Below are positions 1 to 32,025 of a stretch of DNA of 32,025 nt, piece by piece; the stretch's first letter is position 1, and the number at the start of each line of letters is the position of its first letter. The translations under genes and the position numbers were made by a program. The stretch is from Candidatus Methylumidiphilus alinenensis (lineage in GTDB: Bacteria > Pseudomonadota > Gammaproteobacteria > Methylococcales > Methylococcaceae): contig QJPH01000394.1 in NCBI GenBank assembly GCA_003242955.1, positions 1 through 32,025 on the forward strand. Reading direction: 5' to 3'. The notes beneath the pieces are model-generated. The model saw only the letters and a program-made list of their open reading frames with translations. It was not told where the DNA came from and did not search any database.

Positions 1-1220
1 TAAGCGATAAGTTTTTGCCAAATACTCGGGCCTATTACGAAATTTGGCTGGATGAAAAACAAGTCGCCGGTTCCCCGCAGGAGGAGGAACCTTTTTACGG
101 CAAGACGTTCTTACCGCGCAAGTTCAAAATCGGCGTGGCGGTTCCACCCTTCAACGACATAGACGTGTTAGCCCAAGATTTGGGGCTGATTGCCATTGTG
201 GAAAAAGACCAACTCACAGGCTTCAATGTGTCCGTCGGCGGCGGCATGGGCATGACCCACGGCGACAAAACCACTTATCCCCGCCTAGGCGAAGTCATCG
301 GCTTCTGCCTGCCGGAACAAGTGTTGGCAGTGACGGAGCAGATCATTGGCATTCAACGCGATTTTGGCGATCGCAGCAACCGCAAACACGCCCGCTTCAA
401 ATACACCCTAGATGATCGGGGTACGGAATGGTTCAAAGATGAACTGACAGTGCGATTAGGATTTGAATTGGCTCCGCCCCGCCCCTACGCCTTCACCGAA
501 AGCGGCGACCGCGTCGGTTGGGTGAAGGACAAACAAGGGCGCTGGCATTTGACCCTGTGCATCCTGTCGGGAAGGATCAAGGACACAGAAGAAACCGCTT
601 GGCTGACTGGCTTGCGCAAGATCGCCAAAATCCACGATGGCGATTTCCGACTGACTGCCAGCCAAAATTTAATCATCGCCAACGTCAGCAAAGCCAATAG
701 ACCCAAAATTCAAGCTTTGCTGAAAGAATATCGAATTCCCGTCCCAGACAATTGGACGGCACTTAGGCTTCACGCTATTTCATGCGTGGCTTTTCCCACT
801 TGCGGTTTGGCAATGGCGGAAAGTGAACGATTCTTGCCGGGGCTACTGGATCGCATGGAACCCCTATTGAAAGAAGCGGACTTGGAAAAACAAACGATCC
901 ATCTTCGGGTGACCGGTTGCCCCAATGGCTGCGCCCGGCCTTATCTAGGCGAAATTGCCTTGGTGGGAAAATCCCCAGGCCGCTACAACCTGTATTTAGG
1001 GGCAGGATTCACCGGTGAGCGCTTGAACAAGCTATATAAAGAAAGCCTGACCGAAGACGAGATTGTCAGTGAACTCACCCCGCTGATAGAGCGGTATGGG
1101 AAGGAACGGTTAAAGGATGAACCTTTTGGGGATTTTCTGATCCGCCAGAAGGTCGTCCCGGAAGTCAGGGTTGGGAGGGAGTTTCATAATCAGCGTTTTC
1201 AACATCAAATAATTACTTGA
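1..1220 (+). CDS. cysI: Sulfite reductase (NADPH) hemoprotein beta subunit, 5'-truncated by window edge
   Basis: Catalytic subunit that reduces sulfite to sulfide in assimilatory sulfur metabolism, in the cytoplasm, using siroheme coupled to a [4Fe-4S] cluster. The frame is open from base 3 with no stop upstream, so the N-terminal ~160 residues of this ~570-residue family lie outside the window; the TTG at 15 is not a real start. Seen: C-x5-C (CVAFPTC) and C-x3-C (CPNGC) at residues 257/263 and 302/306 counted from base 15, the four cluster/siroheme ligands. The sequence tracks E. coli CysI closely by memory ([35 protein letters not shown]). Oddity: the last nine codons and the TGA (1191-1220) are the end of a MITE-like repeat, so the native C-terminus has been replaced. 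The nearby sulfate-type transporter and rhodanese suggest a sulfur-related neighbourhood. Family assignment is secure; sulfite rather than nitrite as substrate is by similarity. Confidence 0.95.
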
Positions 1221-1311
1221 TAGCAGGCAGGCTTACCCAAGGTATCATGTTAAATCAAAGACTTGCTTGAAAATCTGTCATTTTTAGTTACACTAGAAAA
1301 TGAAAACGCTG
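1191..1311 (+). repeat. MITE-like element, copy A
   Basis: Inverted ends CAGCGTTTTCAACATC (1191) and TGAAAACGCTG (1301-1311) enclose about 121 bp. The left end is the 'L' type (followed by AAATAATTACTTGATAG); the right end is the 'R' type. TA follows the right end, while the left flank is AAT. The L end forms the 3' end of cysI. No transposase is encoded, so it would be non-autonomous. Confidence 0.85.
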
Positions 1312-6741: not shown

Positions 6742-6870
6742 TTAACGTTGCGCCGTTGCGTGAGTCAAAAAAATCTTTTCTCAACGGCACGGTCAAACAG
6801 TATGGCGAGGAAGCAAAAAGAAAGTTTCACGCAACGGCGCAACGACGCAACGACGCAACGACGCAACGTA
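6742..6870. repeat. GCAACG palindromic repeat, copy 1, in a 500-bp gene-free stretch
   Basis: Imperfect inverted repeat: AACGTTGCGCCGTTGCG at 6744 faces TTCACGCAACGGCGCAACG and a short tandem run of GCAACGAC units ending at 6870. On the opposite strand the whole ~130 bp matches 26468-26589, including the inner stretch CTTCTTTTTGCTTC, so this is one dispersed family. A partial copy is at 23004-23023. The rest of 6499-7001 is AT-rich with no gene that I can support. Confidence 0.7.
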
Positions 6871-6968
6871 AAAGACTCAATCCCTCAGATAAGACAAATA
6901 TTCAACGGCTTAGGATTTGGTGAAAAACAACTTCCCGAAAGAAGTTTGGCTGGCTCCAAAGCTCCGAC

Positions 6969-14375: not shown

Positions 14376-14488
14376 TGAAGCTCCAAAGCTTTGGGTGCGA
14401 TCTGCCTATGATAGCGGTTAATGTCACGCATCGCTCCGCTTTATAGGTCGTTGTTATAGGGTCTACATTTGCAATTAAAGGTGATGCT

Positions 14489-14575
14489 GGAGTGCAAGGC
14501 TTGCCTTGCAAAGGCATATGGAGGAAGGGCTAGCCTTGCAAAGGCATGTGGAGGCAAGGCAAGCCTTGCACTCCC
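14489..14575. repeat. Palindromic intergenic repeat GGAGTGCAAGGC family, copy 1
   Basis: GGAGTGCAAGGCTTGCC at 14489 faces GGCAAGCCTTGCACTCC ending at 14575, with an internal partial duplication of CTTGCAAAGGCAT. The same family is at 18804-18862. It lies between the 39-aa peptide gene and hyfB-like, where the hairpin could influence transcript stability. Confidence 0.75.
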
Positions 14576-15098: not shown

Positions 15099-15172
15099 CC
15101 ACGAAAAACACGAAAGGCACGAAAGGCACGAACAAGACATGCTTTTGTTCGTGTTTTTCGTGCCTTTCGTGG
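15099..15172. repeat. CCACGAAA hairpin repeat
   Basis: CCACGAAAAACACGAAAGGC at 15099 faces GTTTTTCGTGCCTTTCGTGG ending at 15172: a long near-perfect stem around a short centre. This type of repeat is common in intergenic DNA of Proteobacteria. Confidence 0.75.
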
Positions 15173-18942: not shown

Positions 18943-19060
18943 CAGCGTTTTCATCTTTAACATAAGACTAAAAAATGATATACAGTTACCCCTTTCTTTT
19001 AAGTGTATACTTTGCGCGTTCTACTCGCTATCAAGTAATTGTTAGATGTTGAAAACGCTG
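18943..19060 (+). repeat. MITE-like element, copy B
   Basis: R end CAGCGTTTTCATCTTTAACAT at left, L end GATGTTGAAAACGCTG at right followed by TA; 118 bp. The right end lies 20 bp before the start of the DUF748 gene. Read outward it gives ATG TTG AAA ACG CTG TAA. Confidence 0.85.
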
Positions 19061-19080
19061 TAACATTTGGTCAAACGTCC

Positions 19081-22000
19081 ATGAAAAGACTTATCGCTCT
19101 GGTAAAGAAACCCTGGCTACTGGCTGGCGGAGGGGTTTTATTAATTTATACCTTGGCGGGTTTTTTCCTTATTCCCTACCTAGTTGAACTTTATACACCT
19201 CTCATTGTCGCCGAGCAGATTAAGCGGCAAGCTTCTGTCAAGGCGGTGCATTTTAATCCGTTTATATTTAAGTTCGACGTGGAGGATTTCGCCCTTAAGG
19301 AATCCGACGGACTACCGATAGTTGGGTTGCGCCATTTAGTCATTGACTTCGAATTGGAAAGCCTTTTCCACCGGGCATGGATCTTCCACGACTTAATACT
19401 GGAAGGGCTAAATATCCATGTGGCGATGGATGACCAAGGCACACTCAATCTGACCCAAATTGCCGACTCGCTACCTCAGACCGAACAACCCCCGCCGCCT
19501 GCCGGCCATCCCCCTCGGTTCCTGCTAAAGCATTTTGCGCTAAAGGATGGGGCTGTGGAATACACACGAAGGGCTAACACCCAAACCCTAAGCCCACTCA
19601 ACCTAGAATTGGACGATATTTCCACCCTGCCGAACCGCAATGGATTCCTTGAATTGGACGCACTACTAGAAGGAGGGGGCGCATTACACTGGGATGGGCA
19701 TTTCACACTGGAGCCGATCCGGGCCGAAGGCGATTTCAGGCTGGCAGATTTCAATTTGGCCTCCGCATGGAAATTGATCCATGACCGGCTTAATCTTGCC
19801 AACCCGGGCGGGGCCTTATCTTTGACTGCGCATTACCGCTTTGGCTTGCAACAGGAAAAGCAAGAATTGAACCTCAGTAAGATCGGCTGCAAATTGACCA
19901 AACTTCATCTAGCCTTGGCGGACGCGGCAGAGCCTTTGCTGGATGTGGATACCCTCGAACTGGATAAGGCAGAGTTTGACCTAGGCCAGCATAGTGTCAA
20001 GCTGCCTTACAATGTCATTAAGAAAGGCCAAATCAAAGTGACCGTTGATGGTCAAGGGGGTGTGAATTGGCAAAACATTATGATAGCCGCCCCGCAAACC
20101 ACCCAGATGCCCCCTGCCCCACCCGCACCATCAGGTGTAGCGGCAACAGAATCGGCACCATGGCACGTCGAGTTAGGCGCTTTGAAGCTAGAGGAAATAG
20201 GCATCGCTTATGCCGATGCTAGCAGCCAAATTCCTTTTGCCGCCACCCTAGGCAGCCTCGGACTAGACTTTGCCGCCACAGCGGAAGTCGGCGCGGACAA
20301 GCCACAAGTCATAGCCCACGGTATCAAACTGATTATCGGGGATATCAAAATCGCCGAGACTGGACCGGATGCCGCGCCTGAACCGTTGTTTACGCTAAGC
20401 AACTTCCAACTAGACGGGGCGGGGTTTGACTTAAACAACCATATTATCAAGCTACCCTCATCGGTTATCGAGAAAGGCTTGCTGCAAGTGGCATTGGATG
20501 AGCAAGGCGGACTGAATTGGCAACATCTCGCCAAACCGAAGAAACCCGAAAACCCAGCCCCCGTAAGCGAACCTGCCAAAGATACAGCTACGACTGTGCC
20601 TTGGCGGCTGGAACTTGGCGCATTCAAATTGGCGGAACTGGGCATTCGCTATGCCGATGCCAGCCGCAACCGGCCTTATGTCGCCTCCATTGGCGGAATC
20701 GGGCTGAATTTTGCCGCCAAAGCGGAGGTCGGCCTGGATGAACCCAAGGCCCATTTAGAAAAGTTAAACCTATCCGTCAAAGATATCCAATTGAACGAAA
20801 ACGGCAAAGCCACTCCGCTGCTAGGCTGGGACAGTTTGGAGGTGGCAGGCGGACGGCTGGATTTGGAAAAGCATGACTTGGGCATCGACAAGATCGCACT
20901 CAAAGGCGGAGGCACTCAAATCCTGCGTGATGCTGATGGCACAATCAGTTTGGCAGAAATCTTCGCGCCCAAAGCCGGAACAAATGCCACTTCCGAGCCT
21001 GCCTCCGCAAAAGGAAAGCCCCCCCCTGCCCCGCCCCTTTGGCATGTCGCGCTTAAGGCTTTTGCTTTGCAAGGATTCAAGCTGGCTTACAGCGACACTA
21101 CGTTTTCATCGGTTATCGCCTACGATGCCGACAGCATAGACTTGAACTTGGGCAACATCAACTACCCCGGCAAAAACCCGATCAATGTCGATGCCAAGAT
21201 AAGAATCAAGCAGGGAGGCACGCTGGCAATAAAAGGCAAGGCATTTGCCTCAGGCAACAGTGCCGATGCCAAGGTGCAAGCCGACAAGCTCAATCTTGCA
21301 CCTTTGCAGCCCTTGGTCGCCAAGTTTGCCAAGCTCAAACTGGACAGCGCGGATTTCTCCAGCAATCTGCAAGTGGGTTTTCGCCAGAACGACACCGACC
21401 CGGCCATCAAAGCAACAGGCACATTAGGAGTCGGCCATTTGCTGCTAAAGGAAGCGATAGGCGGTCAACGCTTGCTGTCTTGGAAATCACTTGCCGTCAA
21501 CGGCATTGACTTCGGACTAAAACCTGATCGCCTTAATATTAAAGAAGTCCGCATCCTTGAACCGGGTATCAAAATCGCCATAGCCAAGGACAAGTCCAAC
21601 AACTTTGCCTCGGCCTTCAGGGCCCAACCCGTTTCCAAACCAGAGACGGTAAAGGCAGAAGAGGCTACTGCACTAAAAATTAAATCGAAGCCGCAAAAAA
21701 CCACCCCTGCACCCTCAAAACCCTTTCCTGTCAAGGTGGAGCGTGTTCGCTTGGACAATGGCATAATCGACTTCAGTGATATAAGCCTAGTAATTCCTTT
21801 CTCCACTCGCGTCCATGATTTCGAAGGGACAGCGACGGACATCACGACTACACCCAATAGCCGCAGCACACTAAAATTTACTGGGCGCGTCGAAGAATTT
21901 GGCGAGGCCAAAGTGGACGGGACGCTGATTCCCTCTGCATTCAAGGCATTCAGCGATGTCAAAGTGATCTTCCGCAATGTGGAAATGTCCTCGCTTTCAC

Positions 22001-22977
22001 CCTATAGCGCTACCTTCGCAGGCCGGAAAATCACCTCCGGCAAGCTGAATTTGGACTTGCTATATAAAATTGAAAACGGCCAGATCAAAAGCGAGAACAA
22101 AATTATGCTGGATCAATTCACCTTAGGAGAAAAGGTGGAAAGCCCCGGTGCCACATCCCTGCCACTGGATTTGGCCATTGCCTTGCTGAAAGACGGCGAT
22201 GGGAAAATCAATGCCACCGTGCCGATAGAAGGCGATGTGGACAATCCTACATTTGCCTATGGCCCACTTTTATGGGATGCCTTCGTGACCTTGATAAAGA
22301 CCGCCGTGACTGCGCCATTCCGCGCCATAGGTTCGCTGCTGGGAATTGAAGCGAGTGAAGACCTAGGCTCGGTGTTGTTCCCTCCCGGAATCGACGCGCT
22401 TCCACCGCCAGAACGGGAGAAAATACAAGAGGTTGCAAAGGCATTGGCGCAACGCCCCACGGTGGAATTGACCTTGAAAGGCGGTTTCGACACCAAGCTT
22501 GACGGTGAGGCAATGCGGTCTTTGCGCATACGACAAGCCGTGGCCCAGAAATTGGGGAACGACGGCGGTGACGGGACTGAACCACTGCCATTCAGTGACG
22601 TGAAAACCCAAAAGGCTTTGGAAGACTTGGCTGACAAACGGGGCGGCGCGAATTTTCTGGATGACGTGCAGGCCGAATTTGAAAAATCAGCAGGACATAA
22701 GCCTACACGAGTGCATGGGGTCTCTGCACTTTTAGGCCGCGCCAGTGAAGATACAAATTTTTACGAAAAGGCGTATCAAAAACTGGTGGAGTCTGAGCCA
22801 CTGCCTGACAGCGCACTGGAAGCCCTAGCCGACCAACGCATGAAAGTAGTGCTGAAGGAACTTGCAAGCCAGCCGGGTTACGACCCGGTTCGGGTGGTCG
22901 CGGGCAAGGCCGAATCCGTCTCCGATGGAAAAGACGGGAACGTGCCAACAAAGATGGAATTGGGAGCGCATGAGTGA
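19081..22977 (+). CDS. DUF748 / AsmA-like envelope protein
   Basis: A 1298-aa protein anchored by one N-terminal transmembrane segment (about residues 12-32), with the rest predicted periplasmic and beta-rich. DUF748 proteins belong to the AsmA/TamB-like group linked to lipid transport between membranes. Internal repeats are visible: three segments each starting W(H/R)(V/L)xLxA(L/F) and containing YADAS or YSDT, spaced ~140 residues apart and separated by Pro/Ala linkers. The C-terminal part has LLKDGDGKINATVPIEGDVDNP and a Pro-rich turn typical of the family. ATG 19081 is chosen because it begins MKRL before the membrane helix; an upstream TTG at 19039 would start inside the MITE. No Shine-Dalgarno is visible, as the MITE ends just upstream. 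Function beyond family is inferred. Confidence 0.85.
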   Translation: MKRLIALVKKPWLLAGGGVLLIYTLAGFFLIPYLVELYTPLIVAEQIKRQASVKAVHFNPFIFKFDVEDFALKESDGLPIVGLRHLVIDFELESLFHRAWIFHDLILEGLNIHVAMDDQGTLNLTQIADSLPQTEQPPPPAGHPPRFLLKHFALKDGAVEYTRRANTQTLSPLNLELDDISTLPNRNGFLELDALLEGGGALHWDGHFTLEPIRAEGDFRLADFNLASAWKLIHDRLNLANPGGALSLTAHYRFGLQQEKQELNLSKIGCKLTKLHLALADAAEPLLDVDTLELDKAEFDLGQHSVKLPYNVIKKGQIKVTVDGQGGVNWQNIMIAAPQTTQMPPAPPAPSGVAATESAPWHVELGALKLEEIGIAYADASSQIPFAATLGSLGLDFAATAEVGADKPQVIAHGIKLIIGDIKIAETGPDAAPEPLFTLSNFQLDGAGFDLNNHIIKLPSSVIEKGLLQVALDEQGGLNWQHLAKPKKPENPAPVSEPAKDTATTVPWRLELGAFKLAELGIRYADASRNRPYVASIGGIGLNFAAKAEVGLDEPKAHLEKLNLSVKDIQLNENGKATPLLGWDSLEVAGGRLDLEKHDLGIDKIALKGGGTQILRDADGTISLAEIFAPKAGTNATSEPASAKGKPPPAPPLWHVALKAFALQGFKLAYSDTTFSSVIAYDADSIDLNLGNINYPGKNPINVDAKIRIKQGGTLAIKGKAFASGNSADAKVQADKLNLAPLQPLVAKFAKLKLDSADFSSNLQVGFRQNDTDPAIKATGTLGVGHLLLKEAIGGQRLLSWKSLAVNGIDFGLKPDRLNIKEVRILEPGIKIAIAKDKSNNFASAFRAQPVSKPETVKAEEATALKIKSKPQKTTPAPSKPFPVKVERVRLDNGIIDFSDISLVIPFSTRVHDFEGTATDITTTPNSRSTLKFTGRVEEFGEAKVDGTLIPSAFKAFSDVKVIFRNVEMSSLSPYSATFAGRKITSGKLNLDLLYKIENGQIKSENKIMLDQFTLGEKVESPGATSLPLDLAIALLKDGDGKINATVPIEGDVDNPTFAYGPLLWDAFVTLIKTAVTAPFRAIGSLLGIEASEDLGSVLFPPGIDALPPPEREKIQEVAKALAQRPTVELTLKGGFDTKLDGEAMRSLRIRQAVAQKLGNDGGDGTEPLPFSDVKTQKALEDLADKRGGANFLDDVQAEFEKSAGHKPTRVHGVSALLGRASEDTNFYEKAYQKLVESEPLPDSALEALADQRMKVVLKELASQPGYDPVRVVAGKAESVSDGKDGNVPTKMELGAHE

Positions 22978-23029
22978 GGGGGGGTTGCCATCACTTCTGC
23001 TTTTAACGTTGCGCCGTTGCGTGAAAATT

Positions 23030-23183
23030 GGCTACCAACTTAAGGCGGGGCAGTTCAAGGCCGTTCGTGGTGAGCTTGTCGAACCATGAACGGCTTAACC
23101 GTCCACCCTTCGACTGCTCGACTGGCTCGCAGCTCAGGGCGAACGGTTAAGCTTTGCACCTGTCCCGCCTTAAGCTGATAGCC
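23030..23183. repeat. Nested palindromic repeat between DUF748 and ABC genes
   Basis: The outer arms, ACTTAAGGCGGGGCAG and CTGTCCCGCCTTAAGC, face each other. Inside lies a second inverted segment, GGTGAGCTTGTCGAACC / CGACTGCTCGACTGGC type, bounded by CCGTTCGTGG and GGGCGAACGG. Just before it, 23004-23023 matches the GCAACG repeat family. The stem could act as a bidirectional terminator between the convergent genes. Confidence 0.65.
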
Positions 23184-23190
23184 TGAAAAT

Positions 23191-24819
23191 TTATCTTTGC
23201 TTACTCGCCCGCCCCGGCACGGCTTGTAACAACTTCCGTGTGTAGTCTTGCGCGGGAGAGAACAACACCTGCTCGACCCGGCCAATTTCAACGATCTTGC
23301 CGCCGCGCATCACCGCCACAAAATCGGCCAACTCAGCGACCACGGCGAGATCGTGGCTGATGAAAAGATAGCTTAAACCCTGTTTTTTGCGCAATTCTTT
23401 GAGCAGGCCAATAATTTGTTTCTGCACCGAAACATCCAGTGCGCTAGTCGGTTCGTCGCAAATGATGAGCCTAGGGTTTACAGCCAAAGCACGGGCGATG
23501 CAGATGCGCTGCCTCTGCCCACCCGAAAATTCATGCGGATACCGCATCCGCGCCGCCTTCTCCAAACCCACGGCCGCCAGCAATTCCTCCGACCTTTCCC
23601 GCCGCTGTTGTTCTGTCGATTCAGGCTGCAAGGCTTTGATGCCTTCTTCGATAATGTCGCCCACCACCATGCGCGGATTCATTGAGGAAAACGGGTCTTG
23701 GAAAATTATTTGCATTTCGCCACATCGCCTGCGGCGGGCTTCGCCTGATGCCTTTGTCACATCCATCCCATCGAACAACACCTGCCCCCCCGAGCTATCT
23801 ATAAGATTGAGCATGGCTTTGCCCAGCGTTGTCTTGCCGCACCCGGACTCTCCCACTAACGCCAGGGTTTGTCCTTTCGACAAACAGAAAGAGACTCCAT
23901 CCACAGCCCGCACATGATCGACGACGCGTTGCAACAAGCCCTTTTTGATCGGATAATATACTTTGAAATCACGCACCTCCAATAAGGGGGAAAGCGAGGT
24001 GTCTGCTTGTTTGCGGCCCAAACAACTCTCCAATCTTGGACGGGCATCAAATAATTGCAAACTATAGGGATGTTGCGGACGCTCAAAAAACGGCCCGCTT
24101 TCGGCCGCCTCGACGATTTCCCCTTTACGCATCACCGCCACACGGTCAGCCATGGTCGAGACAATGCCAAGATCGTGGGTAATAAGCCACAAGGCCATAC
24201 CCGTTTCATGTTGCAGACGCTTCAACAAAGCTAAAATTTGCGCTTGAATGGTCACGTCCAAAGCCGTCGTCGGTTCATCGGCGATCAGCAGGTCTGGCTC
24301 ACCCGCTAGGGCAATGGCAATCATTGCCCGCTGCCTCATGCCGCCGGAGAATTGGTGCGGGTATTCGTCGAAATGCTCTGATGGTCGCGGCATTCCCACT
24401 TGTTCCAACAGTTCGACGGTACGCGATTTCAACGCCGCGCCTTTAAGCCCAAAATGCAAACGCAACACTTCGCCGATTTGTTGGCCAATGGTCATAACCG
24501 GGTTTAATGAACTCATTGGGTCTTGAAAAATCACCCCAACGCGCCGCCCTCTAATTTTGCACAGTTCATATTCTGGAAGTTTGAATAAATCGGACCCGTC
24601 CAGTTTAGCCGAACCTTGTAGAATCCTACCCCCCAAGGGCAACAGCCGCAGTACTGACAGAGCCGTCACCGACTTGCCAGAACCCGACTCGCCCACCAAC
24701 GCAAAGGTTTCGCCAAACCGGATGTCGAAACTGATGCCATTGACGGCAGACACCCATTCCGAACCTTGGCGAAAGGCGACGTGGAGGTTTGCTACGGAAA
24801 GTAAAATCTCATTGCTCAT
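23191..24819 (-). CDS. yejF: Double-domain ABC transporter ATPase, YejF-like
   Basis: A 542-aa cytoplasmic protein with two complete ABC ATPase domains for an oligopeptide-type (microcin C/YejABEF-like) importer. Walker A motifs: GESGSGKS (43-50) and GESGCGKT (323-330). Signatures: FSGGMRQR and FSGGQRQR. Walker B: LLIADEPTTALD and LIICDEPTSALD. The tandem fusion and length match E. coli YejF (529 aa). No yejA, yejB or yejE is adjacent in this window, so the permease is elsewhere or the gene is orphaned. The start ATG 24819 immediately follows a mini-ORF stop in MITE copy C; no separate Shine-Dalgarno is visible. Substrate is unknown. Confidence 0.88.
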   Translation of the reverse strand: MSNEILLSVANLHVAFRQGSEWVSAVNGISFDIRFGETFALVGESGSGKSVTALSVLRLLPLGGRILQGSAKLDGSDLFKLPEYELCKIRGRRVGVIFQDPMSSLNPVMTIGQQIGEVLRLHFGLKGAALKSRTVELLEQVGMPRPSEHFDEYPHQFSGGMRQRAMIAIALAGEPDLLIADEPTTALDVTIQAQILALLKRLQHETGMALWLITHDLGIVSTMADRVAVMRKGEIVEAAESGPFFERPQHPYSLQLFDARPRLESCLGRKQADTSLSPLLEVRDFKVYYPIKKGLLQRVVDHVRAVDGVSFCLSKGQTLALVGESGCGKTTLGKAMLNLIDSSGGQVLFDGMDVTKASGEARRRRCGEMQIIFQDPFSSMNPRMVVGDIIEEGIKALQPESTEQQRRERSEELLAAVGLEKAARMRYPHEFSGGQRQRICIARALAVNPRLIICDEPTSALDVSVQKQIIGLLKELRKKQGLSYLFISHDLAVVAELADFVAVMRGGKIVEIGRVEQVLFSPAQDYTRKLLQAVPGRASKQR

Positions 24820-24822
24820 CTA

Positions 24823-24980
24823 CAGCGTTTTCATCTTAATAACTGTTGTTACGCAGTTGTGTAAGCCGTAGCCCGGATGGAGCCGCTTGCGGCGCAATCC
24901 GGGTTGTAGCCAGATTCTCCCGGATTACGCCGCGCAAAATCATATAACTCAATAAGTAATTTATGATGTTGAAAACGCTG
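24823..24980 (-). repeat. MITE-like element, copy C, carrying a nested hairpin
   Basis: R end at 24823 (facing yejF), L end at 24965-24980 (abutting the ribBA stop codon). At 158 bp it is ~40 bp longer than the others because it contains a foreign-looking hairpin, CCCGGAT (24872) to ATCCGGG (24903), plus flanking sequence of the common GTAGCCCGGATGGAG type. TA precedes the R end; CA follows the L end. Confidence 0.8.
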
Positions 24981-24982
24981 CA

Positions 24983-26092
24983 TCACTCAAAAGCCACATT
25001 CTCGACCACTTCCAGCCCATACCCGGACAACCCTAAATATTTTTTTGGCGAACCCATGACGCGTAACTTGCGCACCCCCAAATCGACCAATATTTGCGCA
25101 CCCGTGCCGGTGGTACGCCAGTCATCGTGGGCTTCCTCCGCATGGGGAAGTTCCACTCCGATGTCTTCCATGCTGTATTGGTGGATGCGCTCCACTAGGG
25201 ATTTGCTGCCTTCTTCCTTGCGAATGACCACCAATAAGCCCCGTCCCTCTTCGGCGATCTTTTGCATGGCCTTGCGCAATGGAAAGGCTGTTTCTTCACG
25301 TTTGCCACTGAACAAATCGCATAGCAAACTCCTACCATGAACCCTTACTAGCACAGGCTCGTCACCTGAAACCTGTCCCATCGCCAGTGCCAAATGCAAG
25401 TTGTTGTCGATCCGATCTTGGTAGGCATAGAGACGAAAATGACCGAATTCGGTGGGAAATTCGCAGGAGCAAATGCGCTCTATGGTTTGTTCGTTTTGGA
25501 TGCGGTAATGGATCAAATCAGCGATAGTGCCAATCTTCAGGCCATGTTGCTTGGCAAACAATTCCAATTCGGGACGGCGCGCCATTGAACCTTCTTCGTT
25601 GAGTATTTCAACAATCACCGCTGCCGGTTCACAACCAGCCAGCCTTGCCAAATCGCAACCCGCCTCGGTGTGGCCTGCCCTGTTCAGCACACCGCCGGGT
25701 TGGGCCATCAACGGAAACACATGCCCAGGTTGTAACAAATCATCAGGCTTGGCGTGCGCAGCCACTGCACATTGGATGGTACGCGCCCGGTCGGCGGCGG
25801 AAATGCCCGTGGTGACGCCACTCGCCGCTTCAATGGAAACGGTGAAATTGGTGGAATGCGGTGTTTTGTTTTCATTCACCATCAACGGCAACCGTAATTG
25901 CTGGCAACGCTCGCGGGTTAGGGTCAGGCATATCAAGCCCCGCCCATAGCGAGCCATGAAATTGACATCCTCCGGGCGGGTGTGGACGGCGGCCATAACC
26001 AGGTCGCCTTCGTTCTCGCGGTCCTCGTCATCCATGATGACGACCATTTTACCTAGGCGTATGTCTTCTATGATTTCTTCTATGGTATTCAT
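24983..26092 (-). CDS. ribBA: 3,4-dihydroxy-2-butanone-4-phosphate synthase with degenerate GTP cyclohydrolase II domain
   Basis: A 369-aa riboflavin-pathway enzyme making the four-carbon unit from ribulose 5-phosphate. The DHBP synthase domain (~1-200) has DDEDRENEGD at 21-30 and NRAGHTEAGCDLARLAG around 137-153 with the catalytic-site His/Glu. The C-terminal ~165 residues align with GTP cyclohydrolase II (RIDNNLHLAL, RVHGRSLLCDLFSGKREE), but the zinc-binding Cys-x10-Cys-x-Cys is missing (SGKREE replaces the Cys-rich loop), so that half should be inactive. This matches the proteobacterial RibBA variant with a non-catalytic C-terminus; a separate ribA is expected elsewhere. The start codon overlaps a mini-ORF stop in MITE copy D (TAATG); no Shine-Dalgarno is seen. 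Confidence 0.92.
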   Translation of the reverse strand: MNTIEEIIEDIRLGKMVVIMDDEDRENEGDLVMAAVHTRPEDVNFMARYGRGLICLTLTRERCQQLRLPLMVNENKTPHSTNFTVSIEAASGVTTGISAADRARTIQCAVAAHAKPDDLLQPGHVFPLMAQPGGVLNRAGHTEAGCDLARLAGCEPAAVIVEILNEEGSMARRPELELFAKQHGLKIGTIADLIHYRIQNEQTIERICSCEFPTEFGHFRLYAYQDRIDNNLHLALAMGQVSGDEPVLVRVHGRSLLCDLFSGKREETAFPLRKAMQKIAEEGRGLLVVIRKEEGSKSLVERIHQYSMEDIGVELPHAEEAHDDWRTTGTGAQILVDLGVRKLRVMGSPKKYLGLSGYGLEVVENVAFE

Positions 26093-26240
26093 TAAAGTGT
26101 TTTCAACATTTCAGCGTTTTCAACCAGCGTTTTCAACATCCAAGCTTAGTTAATGAGTCTTGTGTAGGGTAAGTTTTTTAGCTAAATCAATGTCTTATTT
26201 TACGTCATTATTATATTACTCGATAAAGATGAAAACGCTG
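26093..26240 (-). repeat. MITE-like element, copy D, with triplicated end
   Basis: R end at right (GATGAAAACGCTG to 26240, then TA). At left the L end occurs three times in tandem: AGTGTTTTCAACAT (26096, degenerate), CAGCGTTTTCAAC (26112) and CAGCGTTTTCAACATC (26125). The outermost end touches the ribBA start codon. Confidence 0.8.
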
Positions 26241-26273
26241 TACCAAAGAAACCCCACATTCACTCATCTTGCC

Positions 26274-26450
26274 ATCGTTCCCACGCTCCAGCGTCACTCC
26301 CATTAAGTTAAGCGTTTAATCGGAACGCCAAGCCCCAGCTTGGCATCAGGGTGTACCGCGCCAAGCTGGGGCTTGGCGTTCCGTCAAATGCTGATTTCAT
26401 GCTTAATGCATCTTAACTTGATGGCAGTGACGCAGGAGCGTGGGAACCAT
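26274..26450. repeat. Two nested palindromes of the CGTTCCCACGCTCC type
   Basis: The outer arms run from ATCGTTCCCACGCTCCAGCG to a matching segment ending GAGCGTGGGAACCAT. Inner arms: GGAACGCCAAGCCCCAGC (26322) and GCTGGGGCTTGGCGTTCC (to 26382). The outer repeat appears split by the inner one, suggesting successive insertion. A plus-strand open frame across it is not credible. Confidence 0.75.
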
Positions 26451-26467
26451 GCAAAAATTATATTCTT

Positions 26468-26589
26468 TTACATTGCGTCGTTGCGACGAGACCTTCTTTT
26501 TGCTTCTTTCATAGTATGGTTTGCTCATGTCACCAACCAAAGACTTTTTTCTCACGCAAAGGCGCAACGACGCAACGACGCAACGTTAA
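26468..26589. repeat. GCAACG palindromic repeat, copy 2
   Basis: Matches the minus strand of 6742-6870 over its whole length, including CTTCTTTTTGCTTC and the terminal GCAACGACGCAACG run, with scattered substitutions. Confidence 0.7.
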
Positions 26590-26666
26590 GAGCAATAAAC
26601 GCTAGGTTCTTATTCCGGCCTATATCTTGAGCTTCAACGGCACAATGCGTAACATCAGGTAGTAAT

Positions 26667-26864
26667 TCAATGATGGGCAAAACGAGTCCTTCGAAATGCC
26701 GACTCAGCCAAAACCTCCGCTGGCTGAATATGATGCCAGCCTTCCAATTCGGTTTGGACTTCGGAGCGTTTAATGTCCTCGAAAATACGGCGGACATCAA
26801 AACCAAATTCTTCGGCTAGAGATTCTTTAATTGCATGTACTTCATCAATAATCTCGTCACGCAT
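26667..26864 (-). CDS. Small partner (putative antitoxin) of the PIN-domain toxin
   Basis: A 65-aa protein whose ATG (26864) lies 8 nt inside the end of the PIN toxin gene, so translation is coupled. It starts MRDEIIDEVHAIKESLAEEF; this N-terminal helix is shared with the antitoxin-like gene at 3855-4049. No DNA-binding motif is obvious. A longer open frame to 26939 is a shadow. The toxin-then-antitoxin order is the reverse of most vapBC pairs, but is familiar for this PIN subfamily (from memory). Antitoxin role inferred from the pairing. Confidence 0.65.
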   Translation of the reverse strand: MRDEIIDEVHAIKESLAEEFGFDVRRIFEDIKRSEVQTELEGWHHIQPAEVLAESAFRRTRFAHH

Positions 26865-27342
26865 CGTCTTCTCCAAGTAATTCTTCAGGGGTACAAATGA
26901 ATGGAAGCAATAATCCAACCGTTTCGAGATAACTGGCAATTGCCTTTTGCACGATAGGATTGGCTATGTGTTTGCAATTCCATGTCAGTAATATGTCCAT
27001 ACCATGGACAGTGGAAACAGCAATATGCAAGGCATCTTCAACCGCCTTCAATGGCAAAGTTTTCCTCGTTATCAGGGATTCAGCAATGTCGGCGCATTGT
27101 TCGGTCGTGGCAAGCGACGTTAAGTTAAGCAACGAGTCCAACCGACGAGCGGCTGCGATAGAATCACCAGCGGAGCATTCGCGAAGTACGACATCGGACA
27201 CGAACAAGCGAAACTCATATCGCCTATCCCACCCCCGCCGCGTTAGCAACTGACGCGCTGCGCCTACCAAAGATGGGCTGTCCCGTGCGGTAAGATAGCT
27301 TACAATCGAGGTTTCGATGTAGACGCATGGGGATTCAATCAT
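26857..27342 (-). CDS. vapC: VapC-family PIN-domain toxin
   Basis: A 161-aa PIN-domain ribonuclease. Acidic active-site positions: Glu10 in CVYIETSIVSYLTAR (where most PIN proteins have Asp), Glu55 in VVLRECSAGD, Asp103 in VEDALHIA, then LLTWNCKHIAN. The VYIETS start with a C-terminal P-x-I/L region (PFICTPEELLGE) marks a known VapC-like subfamily. It overlaps its downstream small partner by 8 nt. The pair sits inside the riboflavin gene cluster between ribBA and ribE. RNA target unknown. Confidence 0.82.
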   Translation of the reverse strand: MIESPCVYIETSIVSYLTARDSPSLVGAARQLLTRRGWDRRYEFRLFVSDVVLRECSAGDSIAAARRLDSLLNLTSLATTEQCADIAESLITRKTLPLKAVEDALHIAVSTVHGMDILLTWNCKHIANPIVQKAIASYLETVGLLLPFICTPEELLGEDDA

Positions 27343-27380
27343 GCTTTATCATTCCCTTTCTTTGTGCTTGGTTATGAAGG

Positions 27381-27816
27381 TCATTTGATTTTTTCTGTTA
27401 AAAGATCAGACATGCTTTGAAAGCTGCTTGTAATGTAACCGTTCAGCCCCCCTTGGGAGCGCGGGCGTCCCGCCCGCCAAAATTGCGGCCAAGATGGCCG
27501 CGCTCCCAGGAAAAGGCAGGGGGGGCTGAACGGTTACGCTTGTAATTGCGTCGATTGATTTCACACCTAGATCGTCAGACTCGCAACACATTCCATCCGC
27601 TGGGTGCGCGGAACAAACCCCGCAACTCTGTTTCATCATTATACCGACCCATTCATATATTGGTTTTTTTGTTTGTGTGAGTTCAAAACCTAACTGATGA
27701 ATTCTTATAGTAATTTCATGCGCTAAGATAAATTGATGATGGGTTTCTGCTTTGACAAGATCATCAATTAAATTATTGAATCTTCTCTGAAATTGCAGCA
27801 TAAATTCAGCGTCCAA
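27381..27816 (-). pseudogene. Hypothetical gene with C-terminus replaced by a palindromic insertion
   Basis: Current frame: ATG 27816 to stop at 27406, 136 aa. The first ~90 residues look genuine (RRFNNLIDDLVKAETHHQF, then a Cys-containing segment), while the last ~45 are encoded by an inserted palindrome (27435-27537). Subtracting that element plus one 9-bp flanking repeat (112 bp) restores the frame: the protein then continues SSFQSMSDLLTEKIK and stops at TGA 27381, giving 107 aa. The family is not recognised. It may still make a functional protein with an altered tail. Marked as disrupted because the insertion shifts the frame. Confidence 0.65.
27435..27537. mobile_element. Palindromic inserted element with 9-bp direct repeats
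   Basis: Terminal arms GTAACCGTTCAGCCCCCC and GGGGGGCTGAACGGTTAC enclose an inner palindrome (GGGAGCGCGGGCG... to ...GGCCGCGCTCCC). The 103-bp element is flanked by GCTTGTAAT at 27426-27434 and again at 27538-27546, consistent with a target-site duplication. Its terminal GTTCAGCCC/GGGCTGAAC is shared with the palindrome at 30363-30423. It encodes no protein of its own, so any movement would need a transposase from elsewhere. Confidence 0.75.
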
Positions 27817-27918
27817 TTTAGAAAGATTTATTATATTTGCGTCAATAGTGTGATTGACTTGATTGTTATCTCCCTTGATGACAATAGCCTGATTATGTCC
27901 ACCTTGTCCATCTTGATG

Positions 27919-28575
27919 CTATTTTATAAAGCCGCTATTGGCAAGCAATTCCTCCGTGACTCCCCCAGAAGAACAAGCCGCTTTCTCACCCAACAATAGA
28001 CGTTCCAAATACCGGGCAAGCAAATCCACTTCCAAATTGACTTTTCGGCCCGGCTGGAATTCTTCCATAGTCGTCTCGGCCAGGGTATGCGGGACGATGT
28101 TCAAATCGAAGCGTTTACCATCCACCCCGTTGACGGTCAGGCTAACGCCATCCACGCAGATGGAACCTTTCTCCGCAATATATTTTGCCAGATTGGCCGG
28201 GGCTTCGATGACAAAACGCACCGAACGGGCATCGGCACTGCGCTGGACCACTTCCCCGACCCCATCGACATGGCCGGAGACGATATGCCCACCGAGCCGG
28301 GTCGTCGGGGTCAACGCCAATTCCAGATTGACGCGGAAACCGGCTTTCATATTGCCTAAGGTCGTGCGGCTTAGAGTTTCGCGGGATACATCGGCACTAA
28401 ACTGCCCGTCACCGAGTTCAACGGCTGTCAGGCATACGCCACTGACGGCGATGCTGTCGCCTAATTTCACGTCCGCCAAAGGTAGCTTGCCGGTTGAGAG
28501 GGTAAGCCTGAAATCCCCGCCTTTGGGTTGGATATGGCTGATTTTGCCTATGGATTGGATGATGCCGGTGAACAT
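27919..28575 (-). CDS. ribE: Riboflavin synthase, alpha chain
   Basis: A 218-aa enzyme that dismutates two 6,7-dimethyl-8-ribityllumazine molecules into riboflavin. It has the two tandem lumazine-binding domains: MFTGIIQSIGKI at the start, DSIAVSGVCLTAVEL in repeat 1, GHIVSGHVDGVGEV at the junction, and GSICVDGVSLTVNGV in repeat 2. Length is normal. It is separated from ribD (upstream) by the AAA/nuclease operon and from ribBA (downstream) by the disrupted gene and TA pair. The gene symbol is ribE in most Proteobacteria (ribC in some schemes). Confidence 0.95.
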   Translation of the reverse strand: MFTGIIQSIGKISHIQPKGGDFRLTLSTGKLPLADVKLGDSIAVSGVCLTAVELGDGQFSADVSRETLSRTTLGNMKAGFRVNLELALTPTTRLGGHIVSGHVDGVGEVVQRSADARSVRFVIEAPANLAKYIAEKGSICVDGVSLTVNGVDGKRFDLNIVPHTLAETTMEEFQPGRKVNLEVDLLARYLERLLLGEKAACSSGGVTEELLANSGFIK

Positions 28576-28609
28576 GGTTGGTTAATGCACGGGATTAAAT
28601 CGAAGGTGG

Positions 28610-29140
28610 TTAAGAAATTCTAGTTAGGGCGTATTGAGGAAAAGCCAAGGGCCAGGTTTTCTCAGTCAGAACCAGGCAATCAACAACGTATTTCCTCGCC
28701 CAAGGTTTATCAGCCTCTTGGCGAAGCCGGGTAAGCAAATCAGCCCTTAACTGAATCAAGCTGGAATCCTCAAGGGAAAGCTTGTCGGCACCCAGCACAA
28801 ACACATAAAGAATAGGCTTTACATCTCTTGCCATTAAGTGGATATAGGTATAACTGTCCCTTGCCTTAGGTGCTAGTTCATGGTTAATCAAGTCACCGTT
28901 ATTGATTTTGGCAACAAATTTTTGGCGTTGCGTTTTGATGTCAGCTAACGCCTTTTCATCGTTTCCTTTAGGTTTGCAGGATGGGTCTTTAATCTCAACC
29001 ATTATCAAACGATCTGGTTCTTCAACTAGGAAATCGACAAGCTGCAAGCCTTGAGGCTGGGCTTTATCCTTGTTATCCAACCTTTCTGATGGCAAATCGA
29101 GAAAATCAAATTCAAGCTCATTTTCACGCATCACCATCAC
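28610..29140 (-). CDS. PD-(D/E)xK-like partner of the AAA ATPase
   Basis: A 176-aa protein whose ATG overlaps the ATPase stop (ATGA). A short strand-turn-strand has QLVDFL with Asp36, then IMVEIKDP with Glu49-x-Lys51, matching the D...ExK core of the PD-(D/E)xK nuclease fold; the region after it is helical and contains a hydrophobic strand (ILYVFVLGAD). No known family is recognised. Paired with an ABC-type AAA ATPase it resembles in logic the ATPase-plus-effector defence systems (PARIS, Septu, Gabija), but the second protein is not an HNH, TOPRIM or UvrD-like protein. Nuclease activity is inferred from the motif only; a structural or regulatory role is possible. Confidence 0.55.
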   Translation of the reverse strand: MMVMRENELEFDFLDLPSERLDNKDKAQPQGLQLVDFLVEEPDRLIMVEIKDPSCKPKGNDEKALADIKTQRQKFVAKINNGDLINHELAPKARDSYTYIHLMARDVKPILYVFVLGADKLSLEDSSLIQLRADLLTRLRQEADKPWARKYVVDCLVLTEKTWPLAFPQYALTRIS

Positions 29141-30171
29141 TTGCTTCCTTGCAATGCGCGGCTTATGTCACGCTTATAAAGATCACTGAATGTTCCCGCA
29201 ATGGCGTTTGGACTTATAAATAGATACTCATCTGTAGAGTGTGAGGAAACCGGATCGGAGTCTTTATCTCGAAACAACGAGATATAGTGAACAGCATCCT
29301 CTTTCTTCTTACGCAAATCAAATTCCTTAAGCAACACATAATTATGCGTCGTCAAAAAAATCTGCACACCTTGGCGCTGCAATTCCAACAATGTTTTGAC
29401 GACTAAGCCAAGCAATGAAGGACTCAGGTTAGCCTCAGGCTCGTCCCAAAATAAAACCGCTCCAGGATTTAATGAGCCATTTTGAACCAATAACCAAATC
29501 AAAGCCAATTTACGCACACCCTCGGCCAATAAGCTGAACTCAAATTCACCTTGCTTGTTCTTCAAGAAAAAATGTTCGCCTCTGATGATCACCTTACCAC
29601 CTATTGCCTTGCCTAATTCTTTGTGCAATTTTTCATAGGTTGGATTTGGCAATTCTTTCAGCTTAGGCAAATAGGCTTCCATCAGGACATCGCGAAAAAC
29701 TTCTTCAAAGGATATTTCACGTTTGGCGAACAATGAGAGGAACCCAGGGGCATGGGTCAACATTTCCTTGACTGGTATATAAACGCTTTCCAAGGCATCG
29801 TTCGACCATGACAAATCATCAGTTGGTAGAAAATAAATTTTTTCCTTCCTACCTGGAAAAACTGTTGTCAGTTTCTGATTATTGTCTCTAGTAATGACAA
29901 TGCTAGTTACAGCATTACTCGTTACAGGACGACGGTAAAGACGTTGATAGTCACCACCTAAAGGAGAAAACACACTACATAGCTTATCCACATAATGCTT
30001 ATCCTTTCCCTCCCCCACCGTAATCGCACACGCCGCATACAGCACTTTCAAAATATGTGTCTTGCCGGTTCCGTTCACGCCGATAAACGCATTCACGCCA
30101 TCGGAAAATTCCAAATCCAACTTGGCGAAGCAGGTGAAGTTTTCCAGTTCTAAACGGGTGATTTTTCCCAT
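29137..30171 (-). CDS. AAA family ATPase (SMC/ABC-like, AAA_15/AAA_21 type)
   Basis: A 344-aa ATPase. Walker A GVNGTGKT at 31-38, an ABC-like signature region (LLAEGVRKLALIWLL), Walker B VLFWDEPEANLSP around 239, and a switch His in IFLTTHN at about 276. The N-terminal ITRLELENFTCF is typical of RecF/OLD-like ATPases. No TOPRIM domain is present. Such ATPases often sense or regulate an effector encoded next door, here the D-ExK protein with a 4-nt overlap. ATG 30171 is preferred; a GTG at 30180 in the same frame would add three residues. MITE copy E ends only 4-14 bp upstream, so native leader sequence is absent and no Shine-Dalgarno is visible. Confidence 0.82.
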   Translation of the reverse strand: MGKITRLELENFTCFAKLDLEFSDGVNAFIGVNGTGKTHILKVLYAACAITVGEGKDKHYVDKLCSVFSPLGGDYQRLYRRPVTSNAVTSIVITRDNNQKLTTVFPGRKEKIYFLPTDDLSWSNDALESVYIPVKEMLTHAPGFLSLFAKREISFEEVFRDVLMEAYLPKLKELPNPTYEKLHKELGKAIGGKVIIRGEHFFLKNKQGEFEFSLLAEGVRKLALIWLLVQNGSLNPGAVLFWDEPEANLSPSLLGLVVKTLLELQRQGVQIFLTTHNYVLLKEFDLRKKKEDAVHYISLFRDKDSDPVSSHSTDEYLFISPNAIAGTFSDLYKRDISRALQGSK

Positions 30172-30184
30172 GTAATTCACTAAA

Positions 30185-30220
30185 CAGCGTTTTCAACATC
30201 AAATGGTTACTTGATAGGGC
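30185..30220 (-). repeat. MITE-like element, copy E, single L end only
   Basis: CAGCGTTTTCAACATC followed by AAATGGTTACTTGATAG, almost identical to the L end of copy A, but no matching right end within the next ~300 bp. It is a half element or the relic of a deletion. It lies directly upstream of the AAA ATPase start. Confidence 0.7.
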
Positions 30221-30311
30221 GTATGGTTGTGCCAGATATTTTTTCAATCACCCCTTTTTGTAAACAGCGAGTGACCATGCCCCAACCAGTCTCGCCATCC
30301 CTGGAACCTAG

Positions 30312-30334
30312 ATTCCGGCAGTCCATGCCGGAAT
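30312..30334. repeat. Short REP-like palindrome
   Basis: ATTCCGGCA, a five-base spacer, then TGCCGGAAT. Widespread REP-type intergenic hairpin. Confidence 0.7.
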
Positions 30335-30362
30335 GACGGTGCTTCTTTCTCACAGGCTTTGG

Positions 30363-30423
30363 TCATCGTTCAGCCCGATTGGGTGAGTCCGTAGCACTCC
30401 ATGCTTGGTGGGCTGAACGATGA
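30363..30423. repeat. Palindrome with GTTCAGCCC arms
   Basis: TCATCGTTCAGCCC at 30363 faces GGGCTGAACGATGA ending at 30423; the intervening ~33 bp is not self-complementary. The arm core GTTCAGCCC is the same as in the element inserted at 27435-27537. No convincing flanking direct repeat was found here. Confidence 0.65.
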
Positions 30424-30515
30424 TCAAGGCCTTCTCACATCTACAAAACGGAGCCACAAAACCCTGATTAAGCCGGACGCTCCGACTCAATCAACGCTAC
30501 AGCACTGTCAAATTG

Positions 30516-30634
30516 CAGCGTTTTCATCTTTAACATAAAACTAAAAATAATGACTAACATCAAAATGGTTCATTAATTGAATGCTTTAAAAACAACAAGC
30601 CCCATCAAGTCATTATCTGATGTTGAAAACGCTG
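30516..30634 (+). repeat. MITE-like element, copy F
   Basis: R end CAGCGTTTTCATCTTTAACAT at left, nearly identical to copy B over the first ~30 bp; L end GATGTTGAAAACGCTG at right, then TA. 119 bp, ending 14 bp before the ribD stop. The only complete copy besides A not facing a start codon. Confidence 0.85.
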
Positions 30635-30648
30635 TACCGGGCTTCACA

Positions 30649-31791
30649 TTACTTGCATAATATCATCCGCACATCCTTCCCCACCCGCCGCACGTCCTTT
30701 AAATTCATTTCATAACGGTCAGACATACGCTCCAAATCCGGCAAATGGAACAAGCCTCTGCCGCGGTCTCCCAGAACGCAGGGGGCTAGATAAACCACCC
30801 ATTCATCGACGAGTCCGTCCCGTAACAATTCCCCATTGAGCGTAGCCCCCGCCTCTACGATGACCTCGTTGAACTCTAGCTGGCCCAGCAGTTCCATCGC
30901 CGCATTCAAATCGACCCTTTCGTCCAAACCAGCCGGTAAAAGGTGGATTTCAGCACCCGCATCCCGCAGTTTTTCGGCTTCCCTAGCCTCGGTTTGCAGC
31001 CCAAGAACCAAAGTTCGACCCGGTTGGGCGATAAGCTTTGCCGTCGGCTGCAACCTGAAATGTGAATCCACCACGACACGCGCCGGTTGACGCTCTGCGG
31101 CTATGCCTTGAATCCCTTCTCCCTTTTGGAGAGGGTCGGTGAGAGGTGGTTGAGAATAACGTGCTGTCAAGAAAGGGTCATCGGCCAGCACCGTCCCAAT
31201 CCCGGTGAGGATGGCGGAACTACGTGCGCGTAATCGGTGAACATCGTGCCGGGCTTCGGGCCCGGTAATCCAGCGACTTTCACCAGAGGCCAGGGCGGTC
31301 CGCCCGTCCAAACTCATCGCCAATTTGCTGGTTACCCAAGGCATGCCCGTTGCCATCCTTTTGCAAAAACCGCGATTGAGTGCTTTGGCCTCTGCTTCCA
31401 GCAAGCCTACGGCAGTCTCAATGTCCGCCGCCGCCAATATTTCCATGCCCTTGCCCGAAACCAGTGGATTCGGGTCCGTCATAGCGGCAATCACCCGGCT
31501 TACCCCGGCAGCGACCAGCCCATCCACACAAGGCGGGGTTCGTCCATAGTGGCTGCAAGGTTCTAGGCTGACATAGGCTGTCGCCCCCCGCGCCGCATCG
31601 CCTGCGTCGCGCAGAGCCAACACTTCGGCATGAGGGCCACCCGCCCATTCATGCCATCCTTCGCCAACGACTGCTCCATCCCGCACCAAAACGCAACCGA
31701 CACGTGGGTTGGGATGCGTGGAATTCATCCCTCGCTCGGCTAGTCTGATGGCTTGCGCCATGAATTGCGCATCTTCAGCAGTGAATGGCAT
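30649..31791 (-). CDS. ribD: Bifunctional riboflavin-specific deaminase/reductase
   Basis: A 380-aa enzyme carrying out deamination of diaminohydroxyphosphoribosylaminopyrimidine and the following NADPH reduction. The N-terminal cytidine deaminase-like domain (~1-145) has GGPHAEVLAL (His54, Glu56) and EPCSHYGRTPPC (Cys79, Cys88), the zinc and catalytic set. The C-terminal reductase domain (~150-380) has VTSKLAMSLDGRTAL and EAGATLNGELL. Length is normal. ATG 31791 sits 6 bp from MITE copy G, with no Shine-Dalgarno visible. No FMN riboswitch was recognised upstream. Confidence 0.95.
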   Translation of the reverse strand: MPFTAEDAQFMAQAIRLAERGMNSTHPNPRVGCVLVRDGAVVGEGWHEWAGGPHAEVLALRDAGDAARGATAYVSLEPCSHYGRTPPCVDGLVAAGVSRVIAAMTDPNPLVSGKGMEILAAADIETAVGLLEAEAKALNRGFCKRMATGMPWVTSKLAMSLDGRTALASGESRWITGPEARHDVHRLRARSSAILTGIGTVLADDPFLTARYSQPPLTDPLQKGEGIQGIAAERQPARVVVDSHFRLQPTAKLIAQPGRTLVLGLQTEAREAEKLRDAGAEIHLLPAGLDERVDLNAAMELLGQLEFNEVIVEAGATLNGELLRDGLVDEWVVYLAPCVLGDRGRGLFHLPDLERMSDRYEMNLKDVRRVGKDVRMILCK

Positions 31792-31797
31792 GGCTTA

Positions 31798-31915
31798 CAG
31801 CGTTTTTAATATCGAATAGTTACTTGTTGGGTTATACCATTTTGCAAAGCACAGACACACAGGATAGTTTGAATGAGTGTCCTTTATTATTTTCCTTTGT
31901 TAAGAAAAAACGCTG
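31798..31915 (-). repeat. MITE-like element, copy G (diverged)
   Basis: CAGCGTTTTTAATATCGAATAG at left (L type, facing ribD), preceded by TA; AAAAAACGCTG at right followed by TA. 118 bp. More diverged than the others: the outward mini-ORF start ATG has become ATA. Confidence 0.75.
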
Positions 31916-31966
31916 TACATGAATGCAAATCGGGACTCCTAGCGGTGAAAAAAATGGCACATAGGC

Positions 31967-32001
31967 CGTTTTGACGGTCAACAAAAGACGTTGTCAAAAC
32001 G
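31967..32001. repeat. Short hairpin near window end
   Basis: CGTTTTGAC (31967) faces GTTGTCAAAACG (to 32001) with a small bulge. Possibly a terminator or part of a repeat cut by the window; cannot be resolved here. Confidence 0.4.
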
Positions 32002-32025
32002 ACGGAACACGCCTGTTGCGCCCTA

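Follow-up and report, generated by a model that had tools for sequence, protein, structure and literature searches.

IS630-type MITEs in Candidatus Methylumidiphilus dock beside the starts and stops of many genes

Here we report that the ends of a short mobile repeat, present in seven copies on a 32,025-nucleotide contig of Candidatus Methylumidiphilus alinenensis (QJPH01000394.1 of assembly GCA_003242955.1, analysed over its whole length and called the window below), dock directly beside the start codons, and equally beside the stop codons, of many ordinary genes. The window copies belong to a family of IS630-type miniature inverted-repeat transposable elements (MITEs) with TA as their target, and where an end lies no more than about 10 bp from a start it takes up the position of the Shine-Dalgarno (SD) sequence. 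The proximity of copies to start codons described for the window in the initial annotation is thus real and general. We consider it likely, on balance, that these are border-docking elements whose ends have become SD-free leaders or start codons, insertions elsewhere having been lost. What appears to be new is that an end can seemingly serve both as leader and as start, a reading that we infer most strongly for surA.

Element ends at gene borders

Distances between ends and genes were taken from samples of the window genome (G000; 814,595 bases, 558 called genes) and of an element-rich congener (G004; 489,578 bases, 361 called genes). Both samples were partly chosen around known ends and are therefore informative on distances rather than on the genome-wide fraction of genes affected. 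Genes and starts were called with our own hexamer gene caller, which misses short genes and can misplace starts, and for each gene border the nearest facing end within 100 bp was used. Among the fetched loci (L-numbers), L121-L148, most of the overlapping search loci among L149-L178 and L219-L278, and the congener stretches L353-L357 were listed only.

Nearest ends up to 100 bp upstream of a start lie at 1-10 bp in 23/38 cases in the window genome and 22/36 in the congener, where local TA sites at genes with no end nearby predict 16.2% and 17.0% (18.8% in four other congeners; binomial p = 8e-10 and 4e-9). Stops behave in the same way, with 15/27 and 21/32 of nearest ends at 1-10 bp against a TA expectation of 14.3% each, and over starts and stops of both samples the binomial p ranges from 7e-7 to 5e-11. 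Enrichment at starts and at stops is equal (p = 1.0), and the possibility that ends are special to start codons was rejected on this ground. Called gene borders that fall inside an end add another 9 starts and 25 stops. The initial annotation had staked its proposal on an enrichment of ends at start codons, and this enrichment is strong in both samples examined.

An SD sequence was scored as GGAG, GAGG or AGGA between positions -18 and -4, and a gene was counted as occupied if an end lay at most 30 bp upstream. By this measure an SD sequence precedes 1/34 occupied genes of the window genome compared with 140/499 other genes (p = 4e-4), and 1/27 compared with 105/326 in the congener (p = 8e-4), or 2/61 compared with 245/825 when both samples are pooled. 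Before the hisA-like gene (L111) all four species compared retain the motif gaggattc, with the element on its upstream side, as selection would predict. The names hisA, ksgA and tsaB are putative and given from N-terminal sequence, unlike surA, lpxA, ribBA, ribD and yejF, whose names were assigned in this analysis.

The element family and a related transposase

The elements carry two kinds of end, A (CAGCGTTTTCAACATC) and B (CAGCGTTTTCATCTTT), which read outward as GATGTTGAAAACGCTG and AAAGATGAAAACGCTG, respectively. With at most one mismatch the 15-bp end matches 357 times in the window genome (6.57 Mb in 597 contigs, of which the window is contig 54) and the reversed pattern not once. Of the six congeners searched, G004 has 883 matches and the remaining five have 2 to 45, and counts in 34 relatives further removed run from 0 to 28 (reversed controls, at most 3); a search with ribD led to relatives that include uncultured Methylococcaceae metagenome-assembled genomes at 75-76% identity. 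The window itself holds 17 matches at up to three mismatches, compared with a mean of 3.45 and a maximum of 9 in 100 shuffles.

The element occurs in two forms. One is an A..B module of about 118 bp; the other, a unit about 450 bp long, is bounded on both sides by A-type ends and has its B ends in the interior, as at window 30185-30634 (one B end not seen there), L112 5192-5641 and L113 3678-4127. A two-ended 118-bp unit as the invariable mobile unit was accordingly rejected. Both forms are short and have inverted terminal repeats and no transposase, as MITEs do, the longest open reading frame (ORF) between the paired ends of the 450-bp units being 94 codons. Nested insertions at L112 5192-5641 and L110 5804-6253, read by eye, have the host TA on both sides, which is a TA target duplication, and TA directly follows 57/74 start-facing, 66/80 stop-facing and 180/210 other ends. 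At 61/364 ends of the two samples the flanking TA is absent despite a 15-bp end kept within two mismatches (for example window 24980). Self-nesting is seen as well, again by eye: L068, L196, L214 and L218 each have a second copy at an end's inner TA.

An IS630 transposase is encoded at L299 1060-2010 (NCBIfam NF033545, 176.7 bits against a cutoff of 100; Pfam DDE_3) and is bounded on its right by CAGCATTTTTAATATC and TA. This end, of C type, lies next to 7 (L299, L301-L306) of the window genome's 10 DDE_3 matches, and none was found beside L307-L309. L301 has the same right end as L299 and an A..B module upstream of the transposase. Because an IS630 transposase thus adjoins a matching end with TA, and an A..B module in L301, we assign the elements as MITEs of an IS630 element, of which the 450-bp units look like internal deletions. 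An Rfam scan of the window at gathering scores returned no match. In L062 (1697-4605) two units of the 450-bp type bracket 2.9 kb with ORFs that resemble, by eye, SET-domain and ATP-grasp proteins; neither is a transposase on the same inspection, and the arrangement might be a composite transposon. The module interior (L061 10691, L066 5878, L077 18125 and similar copies) has a palindrome, TTCAGTTAACTT...GTTAACTGAA, that contains the heptamer TAACTGA of Beggiatoaceae repeats, perhaps by chance.

Probable element-supplied starts, empty sites and rival explanations

Ends lie within 30 bp of the start at 66 genes, and for nine of these (8 loci) the end's ATG is in frame with no stop between. The insertion at surA is common to the window species and G004, and in both the gene begins MLKTLYACGL, where five residues (MLKTL) come from the element end and the native N-terminus has been replaced. 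Of the other congeners, G006 has MRKIIFLLQAVCYACGL, and in G001 and G003 the reading frame is open from an ATG that precedes the aligned start by 18 codons. Beyond the element, surA could first start at a TTG at codon 12 in G000 (CTA in G004) or at GTG codons 25 and 18. Use of these later starts would cost the protein a large part, or the whole, of its signal-like segment, and initiation therefore almost certainly takes place inside the element, at the end's ATG or further in. In ribBA of G004 a GTG, perhaps still usable as a start, stands where the native ATG was, and the gene is in frame with the ATG of the end.

Element-free orthologues allowed native gaps to be classed by hand at 22 sites among 45 start-facing genes with an end at 1-10 bp, sites common to both species being counted once; 20 of 41 eligible genes were taken into the orthologue comparison. 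Loci L072 and L081/L202 (relative also occupied), L101 gene 6603 (start unaligned in the only free relative) and L108 (upstream gene not called) were set aside. Nine of the 22 sites have an overlap or a gap of at most 20 bp in at least one relative, and one has 27 bp. Where the window carries copy 3, ribBA and yejF of G004 overlap as TGATG; G005 has an empty site with 8 bp before ribBA, and the native gap of the ksgA-like gene is -4 to 12 bp. At L086 the start reads TAAACCATG in G006 and element-TAACCTGATG in G000, and the target TA therefore seems to have been in the stop codon of the upstream gene. By these comparisons, many of the sites were gene junctions with an overlap or at most 20 bp, the TA that was hit lying within TATG or at the stop codon, either inside it or next to it.

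The initial annotation had offered two readings of the ends at starts. In one, ribosomes would start on an outward mini-ORF, M-(L)-K-T-L, stop at a TA-derived stop codon and re-initiate on the adjacent gene; in the other, selection would have kept only tolerable insertions. The second fits our results, and the first we hold to be improbable. The element ends at CTG, and the stop of the mini-ORF consists of the TA target and the next base and is not encoded by the element. Coupling would agree with the mini-ORF stop abutting or overlapping the start in yejF and ribBA (with a 3 nt gap in ribD), and with the apparent usability of the end's ATG in surA. A purine after TA is also slightly commoner at start-facing than at distant ends (30/51 compared with 65/155, p = 0.051; compared with 94/211 for all others, p = 0.085), which leaves room for a weak purine effect. 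However, the enrichment is just as high at stop codons, where coupling cannot act, and the stop is no commoner at start-facing ends than at stop-facing control ends (30/51 and 29/56; p = 0.56). Nor is the mini-ORF ATG kept more often, with 46/63 start-facing, 58/74 stop-facing and 59/121 other A ends retaining it (start against stop, p = 0.55); the figures for B ends are 10/11, 3/6 and 78/89. Start-facing ends are thus much like stop-facing ends, clear selection of the mini-ORF stop or ATG at starts was rejected, and the start-specific pattern expected of coupling did not appear. The commonest single distance, moreover, is 1 bp (TATG, 10 cases), at which the mini-ORF continues out of frame, and by eye no SD sequence precedes the mini-ORF ATG either.

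The explanation that we favour, selection among insertions, would need no mini-ORF coupling. Insertions in coding sequence, promoters and conserved SD leaders would be lost, whereas those at the extreme border of genes that start without an SD sequence would be tolerated, and with short junctions the surviving copies would lie at borders. Later copies would have grown inside the first, and with such nesting the outer ends would remain at the gene. Ribosomes starting on the element end could use either the native ATG immediately past it or, where in frame, the ATG inside it, the latter giving proteins that begin MLKTL, as is strongly suggested for surA. Several observations weigh against this explanation. 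In the window genome A ends within 30 bp face starts (29/88) and stops (29/88) whereas B ends seldom touch genes (2/51 starts, 0/51 stops; all at one mismatch or fewer), which is only partly explained; the corresponding congener figures are 11/59 and 26/59 for A ends, and 8/33 and 2/33 for B ends. The native gap is at least 42 bp in all relatives compared at 12/22 sites, including lpxA (60-152 bp), ribD (42-405 bp) and the tsaB-like gene (150-991 bp), and short ancestral junctions were accordingly rejected as a complete explanation. With native gaps of 40 bp or more, 12/17 sites with an end within 30 bp still have it at 10 bp or less, where 41% is expected (p = 0.013). Finally, an AGGAG before ribD is present in G004 and was lost to the element in G000, which does not favour selection. 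Of the B ends (window 18943 and those in L061-L120 and the G004 loci), 2/51 in the window genome and 10/33 in the congener touch genes, and for some B ends the outer flank is itself a repeat; among B ends with unshared flanks, 3/46 and 14/32 lie near borders, which partly resolves the asymmetry.

A purely passive account, in which elements inserted into tiny ancestral junctions, the end has no function and weak or leaderless initiation proceeds independently of it, seems to us possible but somewhat unlikely. The short native gaps at 9/22 sites agree with it, as do the many relatives that, by eye, lack an obvious SD sequence at the same gene, but the long gaps at 12/22 sites do not, and neither does the surA start codon, which almost certainly lies in the element. 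Alternatively the transposase itself might prefer border TA sites through sequence context, DNA shape, or a structure opened by transcription or replication. Enrichment of both borders far above TA density, the depletion of C after TA at borders (2% and 6%, compared with 19%) and the persistence of distances of at most 10 bp where native gaps are long all point this way. Even so we think such target choice unlikely, since base counts around the TA show no strong extended motif, and co-directional starts are hit closer than divergent ones (positive distances at 1-10 bp in 34/51 and 6/15), which fits junction length better. A bolder reading would make the end a portable, SD-free translation start region whose terminal sequence is kept by both transposase and ribosome. 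Across scores to hundreds of genes, housekeeping genes among them, it would have displaced the native leader and in some cases the native start codon, and would have done so in two or more species of a single genus; this we regard as rather unlikely.

Window copies and related systems

Features of the window are collected in Table 1. The five copies that the initial annotation placed near starts are indeed there, with ends 20 bp from DUF748 (ATG 19081), 3 bp from yejF (ATG 24819) and 6 bp from ribD (ATG 31791). For ribBA (ATG 26092) it is a decayed end at 26095 that lies 2 bp away, the full element at 26125 being 32 bp off, and for the ATPase the distance is 4 bp if the start is GTG 30180 and 13 bp if it is ATG 30171. 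Also as described, none of the five genes has GGAG, GAGG or AGGA in the 18 bases before its start, by eye. The mini-ORF readings hold as well: ...CTG TAG ATG at yejF, ...CTT TAATG at ribBA and ...CTG TAA GCC ATG at ribD, where the mini-ORF's own ATG is lost, with the ATPase mini-ORF reading over the gene start in another frame. Unmentioned in the initial annotation, window ends also lie at stop codons, 2 bp (end 24980) from that of ribBA and 14 bp (end 30634) from that of ribD, and the cysI-like gene (15-1220) enters the end at 1191 and continues for 30 bp, its stop falling inside the element at 1218-1220.

Table 1. Element copies and adjacent genes in the window
Feature	Coordinates	Strand	Remarks
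Element copy 1	1191..1311	+	A end 1191, B-like end 1311
Element copy 2	18943..19060	-	A end faces DUF748 start 20 bp off; mini-ORF ATGTTGAAAACGCTGTAA at 19046-19063
DUF748/AsmA-like gene	19081..22977	+	Downstream of copy 2
yejF-like ABC transporter ATP-binding gene	23191..24819	-	
Element copy 3	24823..24980	-	158 bp; ribBA stop 2 bp away, yejF start 3 bp away
ribBA	24983..26092	-	
Two decayed outer ends (26095-26109, 26112-26126)	26095..26126	+	Between copy 4 and ribBA start
Element copy 4	26125..26240	+	A end 26125, B end 26240
AAA_21/AAA_15 ATPase gene	29137..30180	-	Start GTG 30180 or ATG 30171
450-bp unit	30185..30634	.	A ends at both termini (ATPase start / ribD stop); inner A..B module 30516-30634
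ribD	30649..31791	-	
C-type end terminal module (CAGCGTTTTTAATATC)	31798..31915	+	ribD start 6 bp away; contig stops within longer element

The contig terminates within the longer C-type element copy at 31798-32025, and several other contigs seem alike; with contigs ending inside copies, the repeats probably fragment the assembly. Other repeat families are also present in the intergenic DNA of the window, namely GCAACGAC units, a CACGAAAGG inverted repeat and GCAAGGC repeats (6819-6876, 26552-26593, 15109-15171, 14470-14570). Thirteen stretches of the largest contigs (L088-L100; parts of C1-C3, C6 and C7) are nearly without exact ends and smaller contigs are full of them, which may reflect uneven insertion or a mixed bin, the contamination of the genome being given as 4.4%.

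Correia elements of Neisseria have an IHF site and their own terminal sequence, which probably differs from the ends described here. In the accessible portions of the papers cited, they are likewise bacterial MITEs, with promoters and an ability to fuse to ORFs (PMC2229807, PMC4853749), and differ in that docking at both borders and donation of start codons do not appear in those portions. RUP of Streptococcus pneumoniae, a MITE of IS630-Spn1, is similarly short, has a TA target and has ends like those of an IS630 transposon (PMC3049150, PMC2229807), but is described as lying mostly 50-150 bp from genes (PMC3049150), unlike the ends here, which lie within 10 bp of both gene borders. The ends of MITEAba12 have start codons with 3, 7 or 8 residues after them that could allow fusion to neighbouring genes (PMC6382973); that element derives from ISAba12 and, in the text available, fusion at starts is only proposed, whereas here there are nine in-frame genes (8 loci), one of them common to two species. 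The Coxiella families QMITE1 and QMITE2 are also spread through their genome, with 3′ fusions, but according to the excerpted account none affects the 5′ end of genes of known function (PMC5896051), whereas here dozens of copies lie at 5′ ends. The TAACTGA repeats of marine Beggiatoaceae, like the ends here, lie a few nucleotides upstream of starts, over the expected ribosome-binding site, where SD sequences are rare; they differ in being heptamers with no transfer mechanism evident, oriented mostly to starts and little to stops in the available description (PMC4679880). One paper mentions a MITE that lies 14 nt before the start codon of a transposase (PMC3189936). A query for MITE with Methylobacter in the open-access literature matched one paper, on Thiomargarita (PMC4853749), and the open-access literature searched gave no account of MITEs whose ends dock at both borders of genes.

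An insertion between leader and start codon should usually be harmful; here such insertions are common, and at some loci they are common to two species. The system lets one ask how MITEs reach both edges of genes without breaking them, and dozens of genes with element-free orthologues in congeners form a natural set for asking what initiation needs beyond an SD sequence. As far as can be read from the genomes, a piece of a transposon would here have become the start of the message and sometimes, it appears, the first codons of the protein.

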